From Roseimaritima sediminicola (GTDB lineage: Bacteria > Planctomycetota > Planctomycetia > Pirellulales > Pirellulaceae), in contig NZ_WIAD01000046.1 in NCBI RefSeq assembly GCF_009618275.1, positions 1-48,567 on the forward strand: DNA of 48,567 bases, read 5' to 3'. Of this stretch, positions 8,655 through 38,129 are shown piece by piece (positions within the stretch are counted from its first letter, which is position 1; the number at the start of each line of letters is the position of its first letter). The notes under the pieces were generated by a model. It did no database searches. It worked only from the letters and a program-made list of their open reading frames with translations, and was not told the origin of the DNA. Both the position numbers and the translations under genes were made by a program.

Positions 8655-9003
8655 ACCATGACCTCGGCATTTGCGGATAGTCTGTCTTTCTTATCTGATC
8701 GCAGAGCCCCGAACCACCAACGTATCACAGATCCGTGCAAGGCGTGGCCGCCGCATCCCGCAAGGGAGCGTTCCGAAAGCTCCGTCGTCTGAGGTCGGTT
8801 TTTTTGTGCTTTGTCAGCGCGGCGCGACGAGGCTTTGGTCAAACGATCGAACTCGGCTTCATGGAAACCGATCAGTCGCTTGCCCACACGACGGAACCCT
8901 CGATCACGCTCACAGCGGTGTTTCGTGTCATTACCCTCTCGGTCAGGCTCTCGGCGGATCGGGCAGGCTTGTTCGCAGTCACGCGGTTGTCGAGAATTGG
9001 GGC

Positions 9004-9747
9004 ATGAAGAAAATGAGCGAAACACCCGATCCGAGCCACCGCCGCCTGCAGCGGGACGGCTTCTGTTTGTTGCCGGACGCCGTGGATAGCGATTGGATAC
9101 GGCGCTTACAAGACGTTTGCAGCCAGACGTTCGCTGGTGATACCACCTCGGTACGGGCCCGATCGAGTCGTGGTCATGTCTATGCCGCTCGCAATTTGAT
9201 CGCGACGATTCCTGAGGTCTCGACCGTTTGGCGTTGCCTGCCGTTGGTGTCGTTTCTGCGCGGGGAACTGGGGGCGAAGTTGGGACTGGTCCGTGCATTG
9301 TTCTTCGACAAGCCACCTGAGCGAACGTGGCATCTACCCTGGCATAAGGACACGGCCATTGCAGTCCGCGATAACCAACTCGCCTCCCAACACTTTTCAC
9401 GCCCGACCGTCAAAGCGGGCGTTCCGCACTTGATCGCTTCGGACGAGGTACTGCGGCGAATGTTGACGCTGCGAATTCACCTGGACGATGCCAATGACGA
9501 GAACGGACCACTTCGCGTCATCCCCGGTTCGCATGTGTCCAGCGAATCCGAGGGCGTTGGCGTCGCCGGAGAGGTCATCATCCACGCTCGCGCCGGCGAT
9601 GTGTTGGCCATGCGTCCGCTGATCAGTCACGCCAGCGGTTCGTCGGTCGAAGGCACGCAGCGTCATCGGCGTATTCTACACCTCGAGTTCGCTGCATCAG
9701 AGTCGCTGCCCGATGGCGTACGATGGCACGACTTCGTCGGCGTCTAA
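9004..9747 (+). CDS. PhyH-family Fe(II)/2-oxoglutarate-dependent oxygenase
   Basis: 247 aa from ATG 9004 (an in-frame ATG at 9013 is also possible). The open frame extends back to 8671, but that stretch is repetitive and not protein-like. Fe(II) ligands fit the HxD...H pattern: His114 and Asp116 in LPWHKDTAI, and His209 in ISHASGSS, with Arg222/Arg223 placed to bind 2-oxoglutarate. The N-terminus (LQRDGFCLLPDAVDSDW) is the standard PhyH opening. The family hydroxylates small molecules or lipids; the substrate here is unknown. Its TAA stop overlaps the stop of the interrupted minus-strand gene downstream. Confidence 0.85.
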   Translation: MKKMSETPDPSHRRLQRDGFCLLPDAVDSDWIRRLQDVCSQTFAGDTTSVRARSSRGHVYAARNLIATIPEVSTVWRCLPLVSFLRGELGAKLGLVRALFFDKPPERTWHLPWHKDTAIAVRDNQLASQHFSRPTVKAGVPHLIASDEVLRRMLTLRIHLDDANDENGPLRVIPGSHVSSESEGVGVAGEVIIHARAGDVLAMRPLISHASGSSVEGTQRHRRILHLEFAASESLPDGVRWHDFVGV

Positions 9748-9990
9748 CAGCAATCGCAATCGTCGACGAAGTGCTGGTCGGGACGAACGCATTCGTAGGG
9801 CAGGCCTAAGCACGTCGGCATGAATCTTTCGGTGAAACCCCGCGACAACACCCTCGCGCGCAGCGGGAGAGTAAAGCCGAATTAAATGTTGCGACGTGCT
9901 TAGCAGCTCGGCGACGACACGACGGACCCGAATCGCAGATTCAGACAACGCATTCGGAAAGCAGGCAGCCAGAAACTCGGCATCAGAGAG
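9744..9990 (-). pseudogene. Small gene interrupted by the 92-bp palindromic element
   Basis: Upstream of the element the minus strand reads LSDAEFLAACFPNALSES then AIRVRRVVAELL; after it, in a different frame, GLPYECVRPDQHFVDDCDCC and a TAG. Removing 94 bp (the 92-bp core plus one TA) joins the two halves in frame as ...VVAELLGLPYECVRPD.... The joined text reads like the first helices of an acyl-carrier-like small protein, but it is short and this is a weak resemblance. No ATG start was found; TTG at 9948 is a candidate. The open frame also continues upstream into the preceding gene, so a frameshifted extension of that protein is an alternative origin. Confidence 0.6.
9807..9902. mobile_element. 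Palindromic MITE-like element, copy 1 (with flanking TAs)
   Basis: The core is 9809-9900 (92 bp), flanked by TA on each side. Ends are AGCACGTCG and CGACGTGCT, a perfect 9-bp inverted repeat that extends to 12 bp with the flanking bases. An internal hairpin (CTCGCGC-GCA-GCGGGAG) has one mismatch here. There is no ORF. Over 98 aligned positions it differs from copy 2 at 7 and from copy 3 at 9. It splits a small minus-strand reading frame. Confidence 0.85.
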
Positions 9991-9992
9991 AG

Positions 9993-10640
9993 CTAGCGGC
10001 GTTTTTTCTTGTTCAGCTTCTTGCGGCGCTGCTGATCCTGCTGCCGACGCTGTTGGGCGCTTAAGTGTTGGCTGTCCGGACCGTGGGCGGAGTGCTGGGT
10101 GACGTTCGGATTCCGGGCGAGGCTCGCACTGTAGGCTTGCATGAACTCCGCGAGTCCTTCTTGGCTGGACATGTCAAAGCCCGCCGCGCGGCCCTGCATC
10201 ACCATCGACTTGGCCATGCCAAATTTCGCCGGGTCGTCGAGTGCCTCTTCCAACTCGCGGACCGCTTCATCGGTCAACTCCTGCAGCAATTCTTCGGCGT
10301 TCGGAGCGGCGTACTCGCGCTGCAAGAACTGGAAGAAAGCCCGCAACTCGCCAACGATTGCCGCCGCGCTATCCGGTTCCGTGGAGACCTTTCGGGGAAA
10401 CAACTCGAATAGGATCTCGTTGAGGTCTCCACGAGTCATCCTCGGAGGGGCGGCTCCGACATAGCTGAAGGCGTAGTCCAAGAAGATAGGCGTCCATCCC
10501 AATTGGCCGAACTGCTCTTCGGCTGTCGCGGCTTCCGGCGATTCGACGAATGCCTGCCACAGCGCTTCACGGTACTCCAAACACCGATCCTCGTCCCACT
10601 CGCCACTTTCATCTTCAGGAATGTCGTAGAAATCAAACAT
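9993..10640 (-). CDS. Hypothetical acidic helical protein with basic C-terminal tail
   Basis: 215 aa, not recognised. No signal peptide or membrane segment. The body is mainly helical and acidic, with a core (LNEILFELFPRKVST, IVGELRAFFQFLQREY, ELLQELTDEAVRELEEAL) reminiscent of helical domains seen in SEC-C/YecA-type proteins, though no zinc-binding SEC-C motif is present. The last 30 residues are Gln/Arg/Lys rich (QQRRQQDQQRRKKLNKKKRR) and could bind nucleic acid or ribosomes. The final codons contain a run of six A, and the -1 frame beyond it continues into the interrupted small gene. Function unknown; likely cytoplasmic. Confidence 0.75.
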   Translation of the reverse strand: MFDFYDIPEDESGEWDEDRCLEYREALWQAFVESPEAATAEEQFGQLGWTPIFLDYAFSYVGAAPPRMTRGDLNEILFELFPRKVSTEPDSAAAIVGELRAFFQFLQREYAAPNAEELLQELTDEAVRELEEALDDPAKFGMAKSMVMQGRAAGFDMSSQEGLAEFMQAYSASLARNPNVTQHSAHGPDSQHLSAQQRRQQDQQRRKKLNKKKRR

Positions 10641-10885: not shown

Positions 10886-12316
10886 TCAAAGCGTTCCGAG
10901 CTCGAGCTGGCTTTCGCCTTTTGGCAAATCGAAACAAGCGACCAGCTTGCCCTCGTCGGCGAACCAGGTGCCGGCGTCCACGGCCGACCGAGTCGCCACT
11001 TTGCGCAGCGCGGTGCGCCCGTCGCCATGCCGGAGACTCACCGGTGCCAAGCCGCCGGCGACCCGGACGGTGAACTTTTCTGTGGCGAACGGTGCCGACA
11101 AGGTCAACCGATTGCCGGTGCGGCGAATCTCGGTCAGCTGCTTTGCCGCCCAGTAGCGTCCGATCTCGCTGACCTTCATCCAGACGGTGTCGTCGGCAAA
11201 GCGGGATGCCAGCGAGCGGACAACACGCTGGAAGGCGTGGAACCCTTCTTCGCTGCCGTTGCTGTACATCCCGGGCCAGTGACACAGCATCACCGCAGGT
11301 TGCCTTTGTTCGATCAGTTCGACCATTCGGCCACTGCTTGCGTCGGCATCGCAGTAGCGATCGGCTTGCGACAGAACGTCGCCCTGCCAACCGCCAAACC
11401 AATCGCCGGTTCCGGCGGGAACATTGACGGTGACGCGAACGTCGTCGGTGCCCTGGCCGCGCAGATACTCTAGCTTGGGCTCAGTACTCTCGTCGCCCGA
11501 AATGACGTACTTAAAATAGTGCGGCAGATCCACGCCGTAGACGTCGCGAACCGCCTGGTCGACGGCCAGCGGTAATTCACTTTTCACCGCGTTGCCAAAT
11601 CCGCCGGGTGTTGTGACTCCCTCGCAGGGCAGGTCGCAGTTCTTCAGGATGCGGAGCGAGTAAGCCAAGTAGGCGGCCAATTCGTCGACGCTTTTCTTTT
11701 CCTGTGGATACGAATTCTCCATCGTTGCGGCACTGATCTCCTGCATCGGCCGGCCGGTTTTCAGATCGATGACACGCGTGTGCGTGATCATTTCCGGATG
11801 GATGTCCCAGTTGGGAACCATCAACTCGCGCACCAGTTTCAAACTGTTCTGCACGTCCCTGCGCGACCACCCGGGCAGGACCCGATCGAGCCAGCCAACA
11901 CAGGCGGGATTGGGCACGATGCTGTACTTGCCTTTGACCCCGTGCTGGGCACACCACTGGCCGAAGCGTCGAACAAAGGCATCGGGGATCTCGCGTGGCC
12001 ACGTTTGCCAAGGCTTCTGATACTCGGCGCGGCCTGGCCAAGCGGCGGCGAACTGCGGCGTGCAGAAGTGGCCCATGTTCACCAAGCAGGTGGAGTCATC
12101 GATGATGAACGAGAGCGGCACGCGGTCACGCGGCATCAGCACCTGGACGCCCGGCGGCCGTGTCGGCAAATCACCGGATCCGGCCCGTTCGGTCACCTCG
12201 GCCGCACGGGTCCGAGTCGTCCCGGAAATCGCGACGCCGCTCGCCGCGACACCCCAAAGCGATGTTTCGAGAAACGCTCGACGATCCCGCCGGATCGAAT
12301 CGCGGTGTGAAGTCAT
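10886..12316 (-). CDS. Tat-exported protein, possibly polysaccharide-deacetylase-like
   Basis: 476 aa from ATG 12316; the open frame runs further to 12385 but lacks sense there. The start is followed by a twin-arginine signal (RRDRRAFLETSLWGVAASG). The mature part begins with a strand-Asp-Asp motif (VPLSFIIDDSTCLVNMGHF), then a segment about a companion strand and helix (KGKYSIVPNPACVGWL), WDIHPEMITHTRVI, and TTPGGFGNAV. Asp-Asp followed by His-containing strands fits a deacetylase/glycosidase-type barrel, but I cannot assign a family with certainty. The last ~90 residues look like a beta domain. 10641-10885 upstream of the neighbouring gene shows nothing further. Confidence 0.7.
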   Translation of the reverse strand: MTSHRDSIRRDRRAFLETSLWGVAASGVAISGTTRTRAAEVTERAGSGDLPTRPPGVQVLMPRDRVPLSFIIDDSTCLVNMGHFCTPQFAAAWPGRAEYQKPWQTWPREIPDAFVRRFGQWCAQHGVKGKYSIVPNPACVGWLDRVLPGWSRRDVQNSLKLVRELMVPNWDIHPEMITHTRVIDLKTGRPMQEISAATMENSYPQEKKSVDELAAYLAYSLRILKNCDLPCEGVTTPGGFGNAVKSELPLAVDQAVRDVYGVDLPHYFKYVISGDESTEPKLEYLRGQGTDDVRVTVNVPAGTGDWFGGWQGDVLSQADRYCDADASSGRMVELIEQRQPAVMLCHWPGMYSNGSEEGFHAFQRVVRSLASRFADDTVWMKVSEIGRYWAAKQLTEIRRTGNRLTLSAPFATEKFTVRVAGGLAPVSLRHGDGRTALRKVATRSAVDAGTWFADEGKLVACFDLPKGESQLELGTL

Positions 12317-12433
12317 GATGGTCACTCCCGGGGACAGCTGACAGACTTGCGGCGTTCGACGGCCGCAACGTGTTGCTCGCGACAATCCAGCATCATAATA
12401 GGATTACAAGTTGCAGCATAACTGGCGAGCATT

Positions 12434-12529
12434 TAAGCCCGTCGGCATGAATCTTTCGGTAAAACCCCGCGACAACACCCTCCCGCGCAGCGGGAGAGTA
12501 ATGCCGGATTAAATGTTGCGGCGTGCTTA
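12434..12529. mobile_element. Palindromic MITE-like element, copy 2
   Basis: The core is 12436-12527 with TA on both sides. One base differs in each end repeat (AGCCCGTCG on the left, CGGCGTGCT on the right), so the ends no longer pair perfectly; the internal hairpin CTCCCGC-GCA-GCGGGAG is perfect. The right TA and the last core base form the TAA stop of the 64-aa gene on the minus strand. Confidence 0.85.
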
Positions 12530-12745: not shown

Positions 12746-15721
12746 CTATTCATCCTTCTCGAGCCCCGCAACCAATACATCGATCTGTTCGTCGGTCATC
12801 GCTTGCCGAGTTTCGAGCAGCATGTGCTTGAAATGCTCTCGACCTTGCTGGCTGGATGGAAAGCCGATGTTGTCGCCGGATTTAAAATGGTTCGACGTCA
12901 CGAGCTTGTTGCCTTGAGCGTCGAGGATAGCGTACCAGGGGATGCCGCCCTTGGCTCCGTCTCGCAGTTCCGCCATCAGTTCGCGGGCGCCTGTGTAGCG
13001 ATGATCCATCTTGATCCAGATGTAGTCCGCTTCCCACGCTTGGTTTTCGCTCAGGTAATCCGACAACATGTGGCAAGGACCGCACCATGTGGCCGTCTCC
13101 TGAACAATCACGCGTTTGTTCTCCTGCTTGGCCTTGGCGAGCGTCTGTGCGTACAGCTCGCGAGCGTCGATACGTTCATCCATGTGGGAACGGAGCCAAG
13201 CGATGACGGCCTCCTTCGACAGTTCTTCCTGCTGGATCAAGTCGGCATCGCTGTCCTGGGCGATCAAGTTACCGTCTGGATCAACTAAAACCAACGAAAA
13301 CGAGACTGGAGTCTCGGCGGCTTCGGCCTCCAAATCGTCCAGCACCTTCTTCAGTTCCGTCGCCGTCTTCGCTTCGCTGGTCGACACCGCCATAATCAGA
13401 AAATCATCGCGAACTTTACTGAAGTCGCGGTCCTGGTAGCGCAGTTCCATGAACCTTCGCAAACGCGAGTCGTCGGGTTTGCCGGCGACCATCAGCAACT
13501 TTTGCTTGTTTCGCTTGCTCCGCTCGAGGCCCCGTTCAAAGCGTTCCTGAACGGTTCCGGCGACGCTCATTGCTCGCGCGATGCGGTCGTCCAGCGTCGG
13601 TGGGACGTAGGGTTTCGGAGGCGGGGGGATCCGCATCGTTCCCAACTCGACCCGCTCGGCCGGATTCACGGTCACGCTGCCTAGGCCCGGGATAATCCCT
13701 TCCGGCGTGGATTCGAGAGATAGTTCGTACTTCCAACCAGGTACGAGTCCGGTCAGCTCGAAGCGACCATCGGAGTCCGTAACGACCGAACCTCCGAATC
13801 GCTTGCTGAACATCCGATTCTCCTCATCGGGCACGCGTATCCCATAACTGATTTTGGTTTGGGCGGCCGGCTCAGACGAGTCGGTTTGGTGAAGAACGCC
13901 CTGGGCGGCCCCGGTTCGCTGGAGATCGATCTGAAGCGTTTCCTCGTCCGCCGCCAGAACGACGACCGCACCGAGTGACCGGTCCTTGTTGAATGCGGCA
14001 ACATAAGTCGGCTCGCTCAACCGCTCGACGGCGAACGTGCCGTCCTCGCCGGTCATCGCTACCCAGTCGTCGCCCTGGAAATTCTGTGAGACAGCGCTTA
14101 GGCGAACCTTTGCCAAGGGGCGATCGTCATCCTGACGACGCACGGTGCCGACCAGTTTGGTTTTGGTCCGGACCTTCATCGTGACGCCCATGGTCAGGTT
14201 GTCCTCGCCGGACACTTCGAACTGCTCAGCCGTTCCTTGGCGAGGAGGACGAACGTCGTACGAGCCATCGCCCAGCAAAAACTCGAAGCCCCCCTGCTCG
14301 TCCGTCGTGGCTGTCTTTACCAACATCGGGCGCACATAGCGACGATCGTTATCGGGGTTGGCGATGACGGCACCGGGAATCGATTGCAGATCGTCGCCAT
14401 ACTGGTAGACGTATACGCGTTCTCCGGCGATTGGTTCCCCGGACGGTTCCGCGGTCAGCCGGCCGCTCAATCGCGTTGGTTTGCGCAGTTTGAGATCGAT
14501 CCCCTCGACCGGCTTGCCGGAATGGACGGCAAAACCGGGGATGGCGTCCGAAACGAAATCTTCGCTGGCGGCCGTCACCATGTAGATCTGTTCCGGAGGA
14601 ACCCGCAGTTCGTAGGACCCGTCGGCCGACGTTGTGGTTTGCTCCCTTCCGCCGTCCCAGCCGTAGCCTTCGCCGGCGGCTTGCACCGATGCCCCCTCAA
14701 CAGGCTCCCCCTGCGGATCGAGAACGCGACCACGGATCGGCACCAGCCGATCCAAGGATACGGTCAGCTGGCCTTTGTCGACAGCGGGTTCATATACGGC
14801 TCGCGTTCGGGCATATCCTTCGGCGGTCGGCCAGATCGTGACCGCGGCATCTTGCCAAACAGGCATCCAGCCAAACGTCGCCTGTCCGGACGCATCACTC
14901 CGCAGCCCCACCGCTTCGAAGAAGTAACTCAGGTTCAATTCCCGGTTCGCCGACGGTTTGCGCAGCAGCCAGGGGTAAAGCTGAACACCTTCGATGGGAT
15001 CGCCGGCGGCGTCCACAACCTTCACAGTGACCGGTGACGCCCCTTCCAGCCGCAGTCGCTCACCGCCGCTGGGAAATTCGGGAACTTCCGTCTGCAAATC
15101 CGACTGCTGGTTGCGGCCCAACGCGTACACCTCGTAATCGAATCCACCGCCATCTTTCCATGCGATCACCGCCTCGATCCGTTCCGATTCGGGAGCAAGA
15201 AAGTCTACGCGCCCCTCGGCATTGGTTCGCAGCTCGCTGATCAAATTGGGGTAGCCGAACGTAACGGCGACGTGCGCGTCGACGACGGGTTTCCCTTCCG
15301 CGTTCACCACTTCCACCGAATGGGATGTCGTCGATTCGAGCTGGATCTCAATTGAGTCAGGGAGATCCGACTTTGGCGAGTCCCCGAAGCGGTAGAATCC
15401 GATCTGAGTTTTATCGCTGGATTTCGCAACGAGCCGCCAGTGCGGCGGCGTCTCGGACTTGCTATGCAACTCCAGCTCGAAACGACCATCCGCATCGGTA
15501 GCGGTGTCCACCGTTGCAGTATCGGTACCTCGTCGGTAATGAACGCGGACCTGTGCGTACGCCGCGCCGGCCGAATCCGGCCCGATGACACGCCCCGCGA
15601 GCTTGAACGGCTTAAGCGGCTGGTCCGCCTCCTCTTGAGAGCACACGGGTGTGTCCGCCACGAACAGCTTTGCCGTAAGGACCAGGACTGCTGCACATCG
15701 AATCACCGACGTCATGACCAT
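12746..15721 (-). CDS. Secreted multidomain protein: regulatory-like beta domains plus C-terminal thioredoxin
   Basis: 991 aa from ATG 15721, chosen because GGAGAG lies 6 bp upstream and a signal peptide follows (SVIRCAAVLVLTAKLFVADT); the open frame starts at 16009 but the extra part is not protein-like and crosses the divergent gene. After the signal come several ~80-100-residue carboxypeptidase-regulatory-like beta sandwiches (FKLAGRVIGPDSAGAAYAQV, VPIRGRVLDPQGEPVEGASV, TKLVGTVRRQDDDRPLAKVR). A first thioredoxin-like region (~730-830) lacks a CxxC; the second has WCGPC at 879-883 and a cis-Pro segment GGIPWYAIL. It likely handles thiols outside the cytoplasm, with the beta domains binding a surface ligand. 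Partner unknown. Confidence 0.8.
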   Translation of the reverse strand: MVMTSVIRCAAVLVLTAKLFVADTPVCSQEEADQPLKPFKLAGRVIGPDSAGAAYAQVRVHYRRGTDTATVDTATDADGRFELELHSKSETPPHWRLVAKSSDKTQIGFYRFGDSPKSDLPDSIEIQLESTTSHSVEVVNAEGKPVVDAHVAVTFGYPNLISELRTNAEGRVDFLAPESERIEAVIAWKDGGGFDYEVYALGRNQQSDLQTEVPEFPSGGERLRLEGASPVTVKVVDAAGDPIEGVQLYPWLLRKPSANRELNLSYFFEAVGLRSDASGQATFGWMPVWQDAAVTIWPTAEGYARTRAVYEPAVDKGQLTVSLDRLVPIRGRVLDPQGEPVEGASVQAAGEGYGWDGGREQTTTSADGSYELRVPPEQIYMVTAASEDFVSDAIPGFAVHSGKPVEGIDLKLRKPTRLSGRLTAEPSGEPIAGERVYVYQYGDDLQSIPGAVIANPDNDRRYVRPMLVKTATTDEQGGFEFLLGDGSYDVRPPRQGTAEQFEVSGEDNLTMGVTMKVRTKTKLVGTVRRQDDDRPLAKVRLSAVSQNFQGDDWVAMTGEDGTFAVERLSEPTYVAAFNKDRSLGAVVVLAADEETLQIDLQRTGAAQGVLHQTDSSEPAAQTKISYGIRVPDEENRMFSKRFGGSVVTDSDGRFELTGLVPGWKYELSLESTPEGIIPGLGSVTVNPAERVELGTMRIPPPPKPYVPPTLDDRIARAMSVAGTVQERFERGLERSKRNKQKLLMVAGKPDDSRLRRFMELRYQDRDFSKVRDDFLIMAVSTSEAKTATELKKVLDDLEAEAAETPVSFSLVLVDPDGNLIAQDSDADLIQQEELSKEAVIAWLRSHMDERIDARELYAQTLAKAKQENKRVIVQETATWCGPCHMLSDYLSENQAWEADYIWIKMDHRYTGARELMAELRDGAKGGIPWYAILDAQGNKLVTSNHFKSGDNIGFPSSQQGREHFKHMLLETRQAMTDEQIDVLVAGLEKDE

Positions 15722-15854
15722 CTGCCGCTCTCCAATCGAAGGCAAGTTTTTTGGGGGGTGTGGTACACTATATCGCATCGAGCGACGTCGCTCCACAAAA
15801 CGGCGATCGTTCCGCCCCGGCTGGTCAATTGTGGTCTCTTTGGGATGCTTTCGC

Positions 15855-16253
15855 ATGAGTATATGGACGGCGAGACTCGTCCTTCTTTTAGGAGTCGCAG
15901 TCGTCAGCAGCGGTTCGAGTGTTGCCGTAGCCGATGATGTTGCGTCGATACTCCATAATCTGCCCGCAGAGAAGGCAGACGTGGTGAAGCAGATCGATCG
16001 GTGTATCAAGGATCTAGAACAAGTCGATGACCCGTCGCAACGTGTACAGTTTTTTCGCCAGCTGTTTGCAAACGAGACCGTTCGAGAGCAGAGGCTCGAT
16101 GTACTGCAGCCCCTGGTCGAAAAAACGATGGGCAGCTTGCCCTCGAATCAACTTCCGAGTTTTGCCCACGTCGTGAATGGTGTCACTACCTCGCGGCATG
16201 GCATAAAATTGCGGCAAGGGCGGCCGAAGCGTTTAGCAGTACGAGTGGTCTAG
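15855..16253 (+). CDS. Small exported hypothetical protein
   Basis: 132 aa from ATG 15855, with a clear signal peptide (ARLVLLLGVAVVSSGSSVAV). The mature part is helical (KADVVKQIDRCIKDLEQVDD, VREQRLDVLQPLVEKTMGSL). The last ~25 residues become basic and irregular. Reading through its TAG gives 27 more sensible codons to a TGA near 16353, and another frame over the same stretch is also open, so a frameshift or point mutation may have shortened it. Divergent from the thioredoxin-domain gene. No family recognised. Confidence 0.5.
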   Translation: MSIWTARLVLLLGVAVVSSGSSVAVADDVASILHNLPAEKADVVKQIDRCIKDLEQVDDPSQRVQFFRQLFANETVREQRLDVLQPLVEKTMGSLPSNQLPSFAHVVNGVTTSRHGIKLRQGRPKRLAVRVV

Positions 16254-36818: not shown

Positions 36819-38036
36819 ATGTTTCGACGAGAATTCTCGACCGCTGGTCGGCTGACCGCGGTGCTGTGCAGTGTTGTCGTGTCCTGGACTGCGGCCCCGA
36901 CCAGCTGGGCCGCGGATCCGCCCAGTTCGAACGTAGAGGTGCGTGGCCAGTTGCAGAACGCTCGATTGGCTTTCTCGCAAAACGCTTCGCCCAAAGTGGT
37001 TTTCATGGGCGGATCGATCACCGAAATGGACGGCTACCGGCCGCTGGTCTGCCAGGACCTGCAGCGGCGATTTCCGAAAGCGGAGTTTGAGTTCATCAAC
37101 GCCGGAATCAGTTCGACCTGTTCGACCACCGGTGCTTTTCGATTGCAGCGAGACGTATTGGCGCACGACCCGGATCTGTTGTTCGTGGAGTTTGCGGTCA
37201 ACGATGATCAGGATGCGGGACACGCGGCCCGCGAGTGCTTGCGGGGCATGGAAGGCATCGTGCGTCACGCACGAAAACACAACCCGCACATGGACATCGT
37301 GATGGTCCACTTCGTCAACCCCGGCATGTTGGCCACACGGCAGCGCGGCGAGACGCCTACCAGCAGCGGGCAACACGAGCGCGTCGCCGAGTACTACCGG
37401 ATCAGCAGTGTGGACGTGGCCGGTGAATTGGCCGACCGCATCGCCGCCGGCACGTTCAGCTGGCAGCAGTACGGGGGCACGCACCCGAAACCGCAAGGCA
37501 ATCGCTTGGCGGCCGACCTGGTGGCCCAGTTACTGGACGCTTCTTGGCAGCACCCCTTACCCGAAGACGCGCAGGCCCAGCCGGCCATTCTGCCCGAACC
37601 GCTGGACACGGGCAGCTACTTCCGCGGGCAATTTCTGACGCCGGGGCATGCCGAGTTCGGCCGCGATTGGCAGCTGGGGAAACCCGACTGGGACAGCCTT
37701 CCCGGAAGCAAACGTCAGCGATTTCTGGACGAAGATTTTCTGCATTCCACGCGGCCCGGTGCGACGTTGCGTTTGGAGTTTACCGGCTCGGCGATCGGCG
37801 CCTTTGTGCTGGCCGGACCCGATGCCGGACAGGTGGAGGTGAGTATCGATGGCGGGCCATTCCGAACCGTCGAGCTGTACCACCACTACAGCCGGGGGCT
37901 GCATTATCCGCGGACGGTCATGTTTGCGACCGACCTGGAACCGGTTCCGCACGAGATGACGCTGCGGGTCGGACAGGAGCACGCCGAGGCCAGCGAAGGC
38001 CACGCCGTGCGGATCATGCAGTTCACTGTGAACTAA
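36819..38036 (+). CDS. Secreted SGNH/GDSL-type hydrolase
   Basis: 405 aa, signal peptide over ~34 residues (TAVLCSVVVSWTAAPTSWAA). SGNH blocks: catalytic Ser in FMGGSITEMDGY (block I), Gly in INAGISSTCSTTG (II), Asn in VEFAVNDDQDAG (III), and the Asp/His pair region GTHPKPQGNRLA (V). About 150 residues of beta structure follow, likely a carbohydrate-binding domain (GSAIGAFVLAGPDAGQVEVS). Esterase acting on acylated polysaccharide is the likely role. The stop TAA at 38034-38036 is formed at the left edge of palindromic element copy 3. Confidence 0.85.
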   Translation: MFRREFSTAGRLTAVLCSVVVSWTAAPTSWAADPPSSNVEVRGQLQNARLAFSQNASPKVVFMGGSITEMDGYRPLVCQDLQRRFPKAEFEFINAGISSTCSTTGAFRLQRDVLAHDPDLLFVEFAVNDDQDAGHAARECLRGMEGIVRHARKHNPHMDIVMVHFVNPGMLATRQRGETPTSSGQHERVAEYYRISSVDVAGELADRIAAGTFSWQQYGGTHPKPQGNRLAADLVAQLLDASWQHPLPEDAQAQPAILPEPLDTGSYFRGQFLTPGHAEFGRDWQLGKPDWDSLPGSKRQRFLDEDFLHSTRPGATLRLEFTGSAIGAFVLAGPDAGQVEVSIDGGPFRTVELYHHYSRGLHYPRTVMFATDLEPVPHEMTLRVGQEHAEASEGHAVRIMQFTVN

Positions 38037-38129
38037 GCACGTCGGCATAAATCTTTGGGTGAAACCCCGCGATCACACCCTCCCGCGCAGCGGGAGAGTA
38101 CTGCCGAAGTTAATGTTGCGACGTGCTTA
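38034..38129. mobile_element. Palindromic MITE-like element, copy 3
   Basis: The core is 38036-38127 with TA on both sides, 92 bp, ends AGCACGTCG and CGACGTGCT, and a perfect internal hairpin CTCCCGC-GCA-GCGGGAG. Both outer TAs belong to stop codons: TAA of the SGNH gene on the left and TAA of tyrS (reverse strand) on the right. Removing it gives CTAG, in which both genes would end with overlapping TAG stops. Confidence 0.85.

Follow-up and report, generated by a model that had tools for sequence, protein, structure and literature searches.

The three related units in the window, by which the whole stretch of 48,567 nt analysed here is meant, are very probably copies of a non-autonomous MITE that carries the ends of an IS630-family transposon and would be moved by a transposase acting in trans. 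A Tc1/IS630-type MITE had been proposed in the initial annotation of this DNA, and the proposal is supported by the duplication of TA, an enrichment of CTAG at the insertion sites, IS630-like ends and a decayed IS630 element in the same genome. Added to this here are the findings that the 96-bp form derives from a 172-bp element by shortening, that about a hundred or more copies exist and that the core is part of a wider repeat. The element represents a new family of a known kind, i.e. an IS630-type MITE in a planctomycete. The number of copies, the duplication of TA, the preferred target, the existence of two length forms and the similarity to IS630 ends are all sequence-based. The following features were located in the window:

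9807..9902, + strand: MITE copy 1, 96-bp form, from TA to TA
9807..9842, + strand: IS630-like terminal region on the left of copy 1 (consensus TAAGCACGTCGGCATGAATCTTTCGGTGAAACCCCG)
9851..9871: remaining core hairpin of copy 1, corresponding to hairpin A, left after the 76-bp loss
9873..9902, - strand: IS630-like terminal region on the right of copy 1 (consensus, in inward direction, TAAGCACGTCGCAACATTTCATTCGGC)
12434..12529, + strand: MITE copy 2, 96-bp form, from TA to TA, with substitutions in the ends
12478..12498: remaining core hairpin of copy 2
38034..38129, + strand: MITE copy 3, 96-bp form, from TA to TA
38078..38098: remaining core hairpin of copy 3

Each of the three units consists of a 92-bp core with TA on each side (96 bp), and over 98 bp copy 1 differs from copy 2 at 7 and from copy 3 at 9 positions, so that the positions and differences given in the initial annotation were confirmed; copies 2 and 3 differ from each other at 12 positions over the same length. 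The internal hairpin described as common to the copies (CCCTCCCGC-GCA-GCGGGAGRG) was found as well. The ends AGCACGTCG/CGACGTGCT, which had been attributed to all three copies, are not true of copy 2, whose ends are AGCCCGTCG and CGGCGTGCT. That the copies have no ORF says little at a length of 96 bp. Copy 1 is flanked by CC to the left of its first TA and by GC to the right of its second TA, i.e. it occupies a CTAG-type target, and lies between a PhyH-like ORF (8671-9747, + strand) and an ORF on the - strand (9993-10640). Copy 2 is located between two ORFs on the - strand (10886-12385 and 12746-16009), and copy 3 lies exactly between two convergent genes, a GDSL-lipase ORF (+) and a tyrosine-tRNA ligase ORF (-). 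In single-strand folding, copy 3 was better than 200 of 200 shuffles (z -5.1), with weaker values for copy 1 (z -2.4) and copy 2 (z -1.4).

For the analysis of the genome-wide distribution, the draft assembly of the same genome (6.25 Mb in 185 contigs) was searched with positions 9800-9910 of the window. All 40 scored candidates, out of 172 first-look candidates, matched with 90-98% identity, the query itself excepted, and the three window copies were among them. The window copies, which had previously been claimed to be a multi-copy element and for which a genome search had been suggested, belong to a genome-wide family far above chance. A 20-base left-end pattern with one mismatch allowed was found at 120 places and its reversed control at none, and the 11-base end alone with up to one mismatch was less specific (348 places vs 205 for the reversed control). 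Among 100 of these 348 places that were listed, many ends pair at a distance of about 172 rather than 96 bp, and a search with a 172-bp query (40 candidates scored of 188) revealed the longer form.

In total, 98 distinct copies with lengths of 85-173 bp, all non-coding, were recovered from the best-scoring matches and the end motifs of the 100 listed places, and they represent a sample rather than a census. The recovery was limited to lengths of 85-190 bp, and end pairs with a similarity below 38/52 were dropped. Two main lengths were found, 172 bp (45 copies) and 96 bp (36 copies), besides 171 or 173 bp (8 copies), 95 bp and 100 bp (one copy each) and seven other copies of 85-142 bp. The 11-bp terminal inverted repeat TAAGCACGTCG was present without mismatch at both ends of 75 of the 98 copies, which had been located by the 11-bp motif itself with up to two mismatches per end. 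Because the copies are close to their consensus (median identity of 97.7% for the 172-bp form and 97.4% for the 96-bp form), the family has spread fairly recently, in agreement with the earlier suggestion. Several contigs start or end at, or less than about 150 bp from, an element end (C152:1, C151:1, C66 end, C77 start, C97 start, C100 end and C4:141), which is consistent with repeats breaking the assembly. At L044:1500-1552 (C102:26699-26751 of the same genome), three tandem copies 21 bp apart start with TAAGCACGTCG or TAAGCGCGTCG; this short tandem repeat has the end motif either by chance or by capture.

With the ends as called by script, TA was present at both outer ends of 86 of the 98 copies and absent at one or both called ends of the other 12. 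Several copies sit inside other genomic repeats, and natural paralogous empty sites therefore exist. Of 85 copies tested, 18 had an uninterrupted paralogous match across the junction, and the best join of these informative copies contained one TA in 16 cases, two TA in 2 cases and no TA in none (14, 1 and 0, respectively, for joins gap-free at the junction); for some copies, e.g. L008 and L066, the uninterrupted site is provided by a tandem repeat unit flanking the copy itself. Since the single-TA join was best in 16 of 18 copies, TA is duplicated on insertion. The comparison with empty sites, proposed in the initial annotation for orthologous loci, was informative for paralogous sites, and an orthologous empty site was not found. 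For copy 3, none was detected in the congeners G001-G003, in which synteny on the lipase side was not found; its second neighbour gene is located elsewhere in G001 and G002 and has no match in G003, and no such end lies just past the 3' side of the tyrosine-tRNA ligase orthologues of the three congeners. In G001, a single core-like hairpin unit that lacks IS630 ends is located downstream of the GDSL-lipase orthologue (L260, C1 near 3629853). Other dispersed palindromic repeats, e.g. those around GAGCCGTTTAGGCGCTAGCCTCGGTTTCGTCACC, hold MITE insertions, as seen in the flanks of L007, L010, L038, L054, L069 and L075.

IS630 elements prefer CTAG targets, and a CTAG context was found for 38 of 85 copies vs 3.7% of TA sites, which corresponds to a 12-fold enrichment. 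The element would accordingly be expected to insert at TA, mostly in CTAG, with duplication of the TA. At copy 3, the two neighbouring ORFs (lipase and tyrosine-tRNA ligase) now terminate in the element, each at the TAA of the end next to it. When one TA is removed, the flanks read AAC-TAG-GG, in which CTAG provides a stop codon on both strands, and we infer that the site before insertion was a CTAG with TAG as the stop of both ORFs. Insertion into a CTAG stop, with TAA supplied by each end, would allow landing at gene ends with the protein unchanged. In the whole sample, the TAA of the end closes an ORF of at least 200 codons at 22 of 171 ends (12.9%; 7 and 8 ends in the other two frames), and 11.5% of 401 free CTAG sites close such ORFs. 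The stop codon as a selected target was rejected on the basis of these similar values, and the use of stop codons by the ends is explained by the site preference, because free CTAG sites are about equal in this respect.

With regard to a partner transposon, the genome itself contains one DDE_3 (IS630) match among 6 candidates, a frameshifted and decayed remnant with end-like sequences 884 bp apart. An intact IS630 transposase was not found by the DDE_3 search in the draft assembly, from which multi-copy elements may be missing. Given that this decayed remnant is the sole IS630 gene detected in the assembly, the MITE family may now be immobile in its own genome. The 103-residue open piece of the remnant has matches in 21 of 241 genomes of the family, the own genome included, with 11 places in G227. 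Around the transposase relatives, 8 of 30 loci have both ends (up to one motif mismatch) at a distance of 1144-1197 bp. Two of the 11 places in G227 are copies that are 99.9% identical inside and at 10 and 14 of 60 positions just outside, and the two inspected copies have TA at both borders. The intact G227 protein scored 205.6 bits as NCBIfam IS630 family transposase (cut-off 100) and 107.5 for Pfam DDE_3, and a GTDB scan with this protein gave four relatives, of which two are from Aporhodopirellula aestuarii and one each from Rhodopirellula rubra and a Planctomycetaceae MAG. These relatives suggest that the window comes from a planctomycete, probably of the Pirellulaceae.

The ends of the IS630 elements were compared with those of the MITE. 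In each of 19 IS ends, 17-27 of 34 positions agree with whichever MITE end fits better (about 8.5 on average in the null), with up to 24/34 for the left and up to 27/34 for the right terminal region of copy 1. Because 18 of the 19 ends fit the motif or were picked by it, the comparison was redone on the 25 positions outside the motif. For the right MITE end, 18/25 positions were then alike in the G169 remnant and 16/25 in G227 and G239 (null mean 6.0), scores that were matched by 0 of 20,000 null windows. For the left MITE end (null mean 6.3), 16/25 positions were alike in the remnant of the own genome (p 5e-5) and 15/25 in G180, G186 and G184 (p 2e-4). The ends of G110, G049 and G174 were marginal (best p 0.007-0.03, before correction for 19 x 2 comparisons), the second end of the own remnant gave p 0.01 for the left and 0.75 for the right MITE end, and the G119 N end showed no similarity to either MITE end (best p 0.08). 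The similarity of the MITE ends to IS630 ends thus appears to persist outside the search motif for many of the 19 ends. The ends would be recognised by an IS630 transposase provided in trans, presumably with cut-and-paste chemistry. A full IS630 element with TAAGCACGTC-like ends, as anticipated in the initial annotation, exists in intact form in relatives; the own genome has a single decayed one, and the similarity of the ends is partial.

Among 39 relatives searched with the 111-bp query of copy 1, G016 alone gave a match, which is limited to a 37-bp end, and the other 38, all three congeners among them, gave none. The degenerate 20-base left end was found at 54 places in 22 other genomes among the 241 searched, and its reversed control at 4 places in 4 genomes of the 241; a few of the 54 places (e.g. 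in G078 and G079) look like chance matches in genes. At 20 of 40 fetched loci from other genomes, a second inverted end (up to one mismatch per end) is located 118-524 bp away, and because these 20 loci have varied interiors, IS630-ended MITEs with many interiors exist in the family. Some of the IS630-ended MITEs among L127-L166 apparently have other repeats nested in them (e.g. L133, L137 and L141). End pairs at 118-524 bp leave no room for a transposase gene, which takes about 1 kb, and were rejected as autonomous elements. Some loci also have paired ends that lie 1.2-2.5 kb apart. Of these longer candidates, L143:3000-4866 in G170, with ends 1866 bp apart, was rejected as autonomous, since by eye it holds a membrane-protease-like host gene; it is possibly formed by two MITE pieces able to act as a composite. 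Likewise, the 388-codon ORF behind the end at L120 was rejected as a transposase, since on inspection by eye it resembles a prepilin gene.

Searches of the open-access literature listed no IS630 MITE family for planctomycetes, and the present pairing of an IS630 element and a MITE is a supported one for this group. Among the closest known systems by description is RUP of Streptococcus pneumoniae, a short, non-coding, high-copy element that is flanked by TA and has IS630 transposon ends, its partner being IS630-Spn1. The present element is likewise short, non-coding, high-copy and TA-flanked with IS630 ends and, unlike RUP, has a three-hairpin core, two length forms and a partner of which intact copies were found in other species only. 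PMC3733652 mentions RUP as one of the bacterial MITEs. In comparison with IS630-family insertion sequences, the MITE has similar ends, TA duplication and CTAG preference, but it is without a transposase gene, and only about 30-36 bp per end are IS630-like. ERIC and Correia elements (NEMIS/CREE) are intergenic palindromic MITEs with TA-type target sites that are able to form long hairpins. They resemble the present element, by description, in their similar length, intergenic location, palindromic structure and TA-type sites, whereas for the present element similar ends point to the likely mobilising family. For ERIC, 30 to 711 copies per genome are given in part of a review (PMC10969869).

The 172-bp consensus starts with the left end TAAGCACGTCGGCATGAATCTTTCGGTGAAACCCCGCGACAACA, which is followed by hairpin A (CCCTCCCGC-GCA-GCGGGAGGG), a long inverted repeat (TCGGGCTCTTAGGCCCGGGGAGGG ... 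CCCTCTCCGGGCCTAAGAGCCCGA), hairpin C (CTCTCCC-AGA-GGGAGAG) and the right end TAAAGCCGAATGAAATGTTGCGACGTGCTTA. Between its ends, the 172-bp form has a palindromic core of three hairpins. In the 96-bp form, 76 bp of these internal hairpins are missing, from GGGAG in the 3' arm of hairpin A to GGGAG in the 3' arm of hairpin C. The 76 bp were probably lost between the GGGAGRGT repeats in the 3' arms of the first and the last hairpin, possibly by slippage or recombination at the hairpins.

The two length forms do not follow the relationships of the copies. On a tree of the shared 89 nt, the length class is distributed at random (21 changes; 200 shuffles with a mean of 21.4 and a range of 16-27), six identical shared 89-mers are present in both length classes, and the junction variants GGGAGGGT and GGGAGAGT each occur with both main right-half types. 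Taken together, these results leave a single origin of the 96-bp form unsupported. Among the sites of the right half, six pairs are linked (p 0.0005-0.0015), and all 8 of 8 left-right site pairs are unlinked (p 0.05-0.61); since the two left sites are mutually unlinked (p 1.0), the left half has little power in this test. In the test of the length class against 6 sites, no linkage to those of the right half and a weak linkage (p 0.008) to one of the two in the left half were seen. The free length class is accounted for by repeated loss of the 76 bp, by exchange between copies or by a combination of the two, and exchange fits the length data as well as repeated loss does. It is also conceivable that the 96/172 pattern is an artefact of short-read assembly or library preparation at strong hairpins. 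About 100 copies of two lengths in one genome provide a data set on how structured MITEs recombine, shrink and swap interiors, and specialists may value the independence of length class from sequence as well as the sharing of one core by two kinds of ends, described below.

The 172-bp query, with up to three candidates scored per genome, gave matches in 41 of the 241 genomes, the own genome included, mostly via the core; short core matches were also obtained in two of the three congeners (G001 and G003). Of 20 core loci, 2 have IS630-type ends (G223, another genus) and 3 have the G149 repeat, whereas 15 lack both the G149 repeat and a pair of IS630-type ends. The best side of these 15 loci shows 4-7 mismatches of 16, and one-sided IS630 motif matches with two mismatches occur in several of them at chance level. 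In G149 (L236-L238), three near-identical 209-bp copies have GAGATCGTGCGGCTTT inverted repeats around the same hairpin core, and their flanking 4-mers (GGAT/GGAT, ACTC/ACTC and AGTC/AGTT) point to apparent 4-bp target duplications of this MITE. The right flanks of the G192 loci (L242-L244) share part of the G149 repeat with 5 mismatches of 16 and were not counted. Both IS630-ended elements and the G149 elements enclose the core, which is therefore associated with two kinds of transposon ends and also seems to occur on its own; in G084 and G014, core units are present in arrays.

For the cores without ends in related genomes, an explanation as end-trimmed remnants of MITEs instead of an independent module is quite possible, although we would not favour it outright. 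It has a precedent in QMITE2, in which copies that lost their ends then resemble REPs, as described in part of a review (PMC10969869), and it fits G223, where IS630-type ends enclose the same core in another genus. The 15 of 20 loci without such ends or the G149 repeat, the arrays in G084 and G014, and the three G149 copies with a different inverted repeat and 4-bp duplications argue against it. This explanation competes with the module alone and leaves the MITE reading of the element untouched. More speculatively, and in our view rather unlikely in this full form, the palindromic two-unit core could be an exchangeable cassette that the ends of two or more unrelated kinds of transposon have acquired (IS630-type with TA duplication in this genome and in G223, and the 209-bp MITE with GAGATCGTGCGGCTTT repeats and 4-bp duplications in G149), with IS630-type ends enclosing several cores and with length and perhaps halves being reassorted; evolution would then proceed by hairpin-guided exchange and precise 76-bp loss, not by master copying.

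It is very improbable that the element is not mobile and has been conserved for a function, as a structured RNA or a bidirectional terminator. The strong hairpins, the position of copy 3 between convergent genes and a core structure common to 8 aligned sequences would fit such a role, but two-sided changes occur in only 3 of 35 pairs (weak covariation), and no Rfam RNA family matched in the window at the gathering score (0 matches), by which an Rfam RNA was rejected. Near-identical copies at unrelated sites, the missing copy-1 match in congeners and insertion into other repeats with TA duplication also speak against it, as does the use of TAA as a stop at a frequency close to that of free CTAG sites. 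A secondary terminator effect of MITE copies is nevertheless conceivable.

A REP/REPIN moved by a RAYT (Y1 tyrosine transposase) in place of a DDE-transposon MITE is an extremely unlikely identity for the repeat. Its core resembles that of REP/REPIN in being built of inverted REP-like hairpin units, which elsewhere occur singly, in inverted pairs and in arrays, and the own genome has 7 Y1_Tnp matches. However, a repeat-flanked RAYT gene was not found at these 7 loci, which contain no match to the element or its core of more than 13 bp within about 1.5 kb on either side, contig permitting, and RAYT/REP was rejected for the whole element because no element lies beside the own RAYT genes. Unlike REP/REPIN, the element has terminal inverted repeats, TA duplication and IS630-like ends, and its mobility is attributed to these DDE-type ends. 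An integron attC site, considered in view of the palindromic ends, was dropped by reasoning, as the copies are dispersed singly over many contigs. Several of the Y1/RAYT matches at L100-L106, such as L100-L103, are surrounded by what reads as repetitive frames and represents arrays of other repeats.
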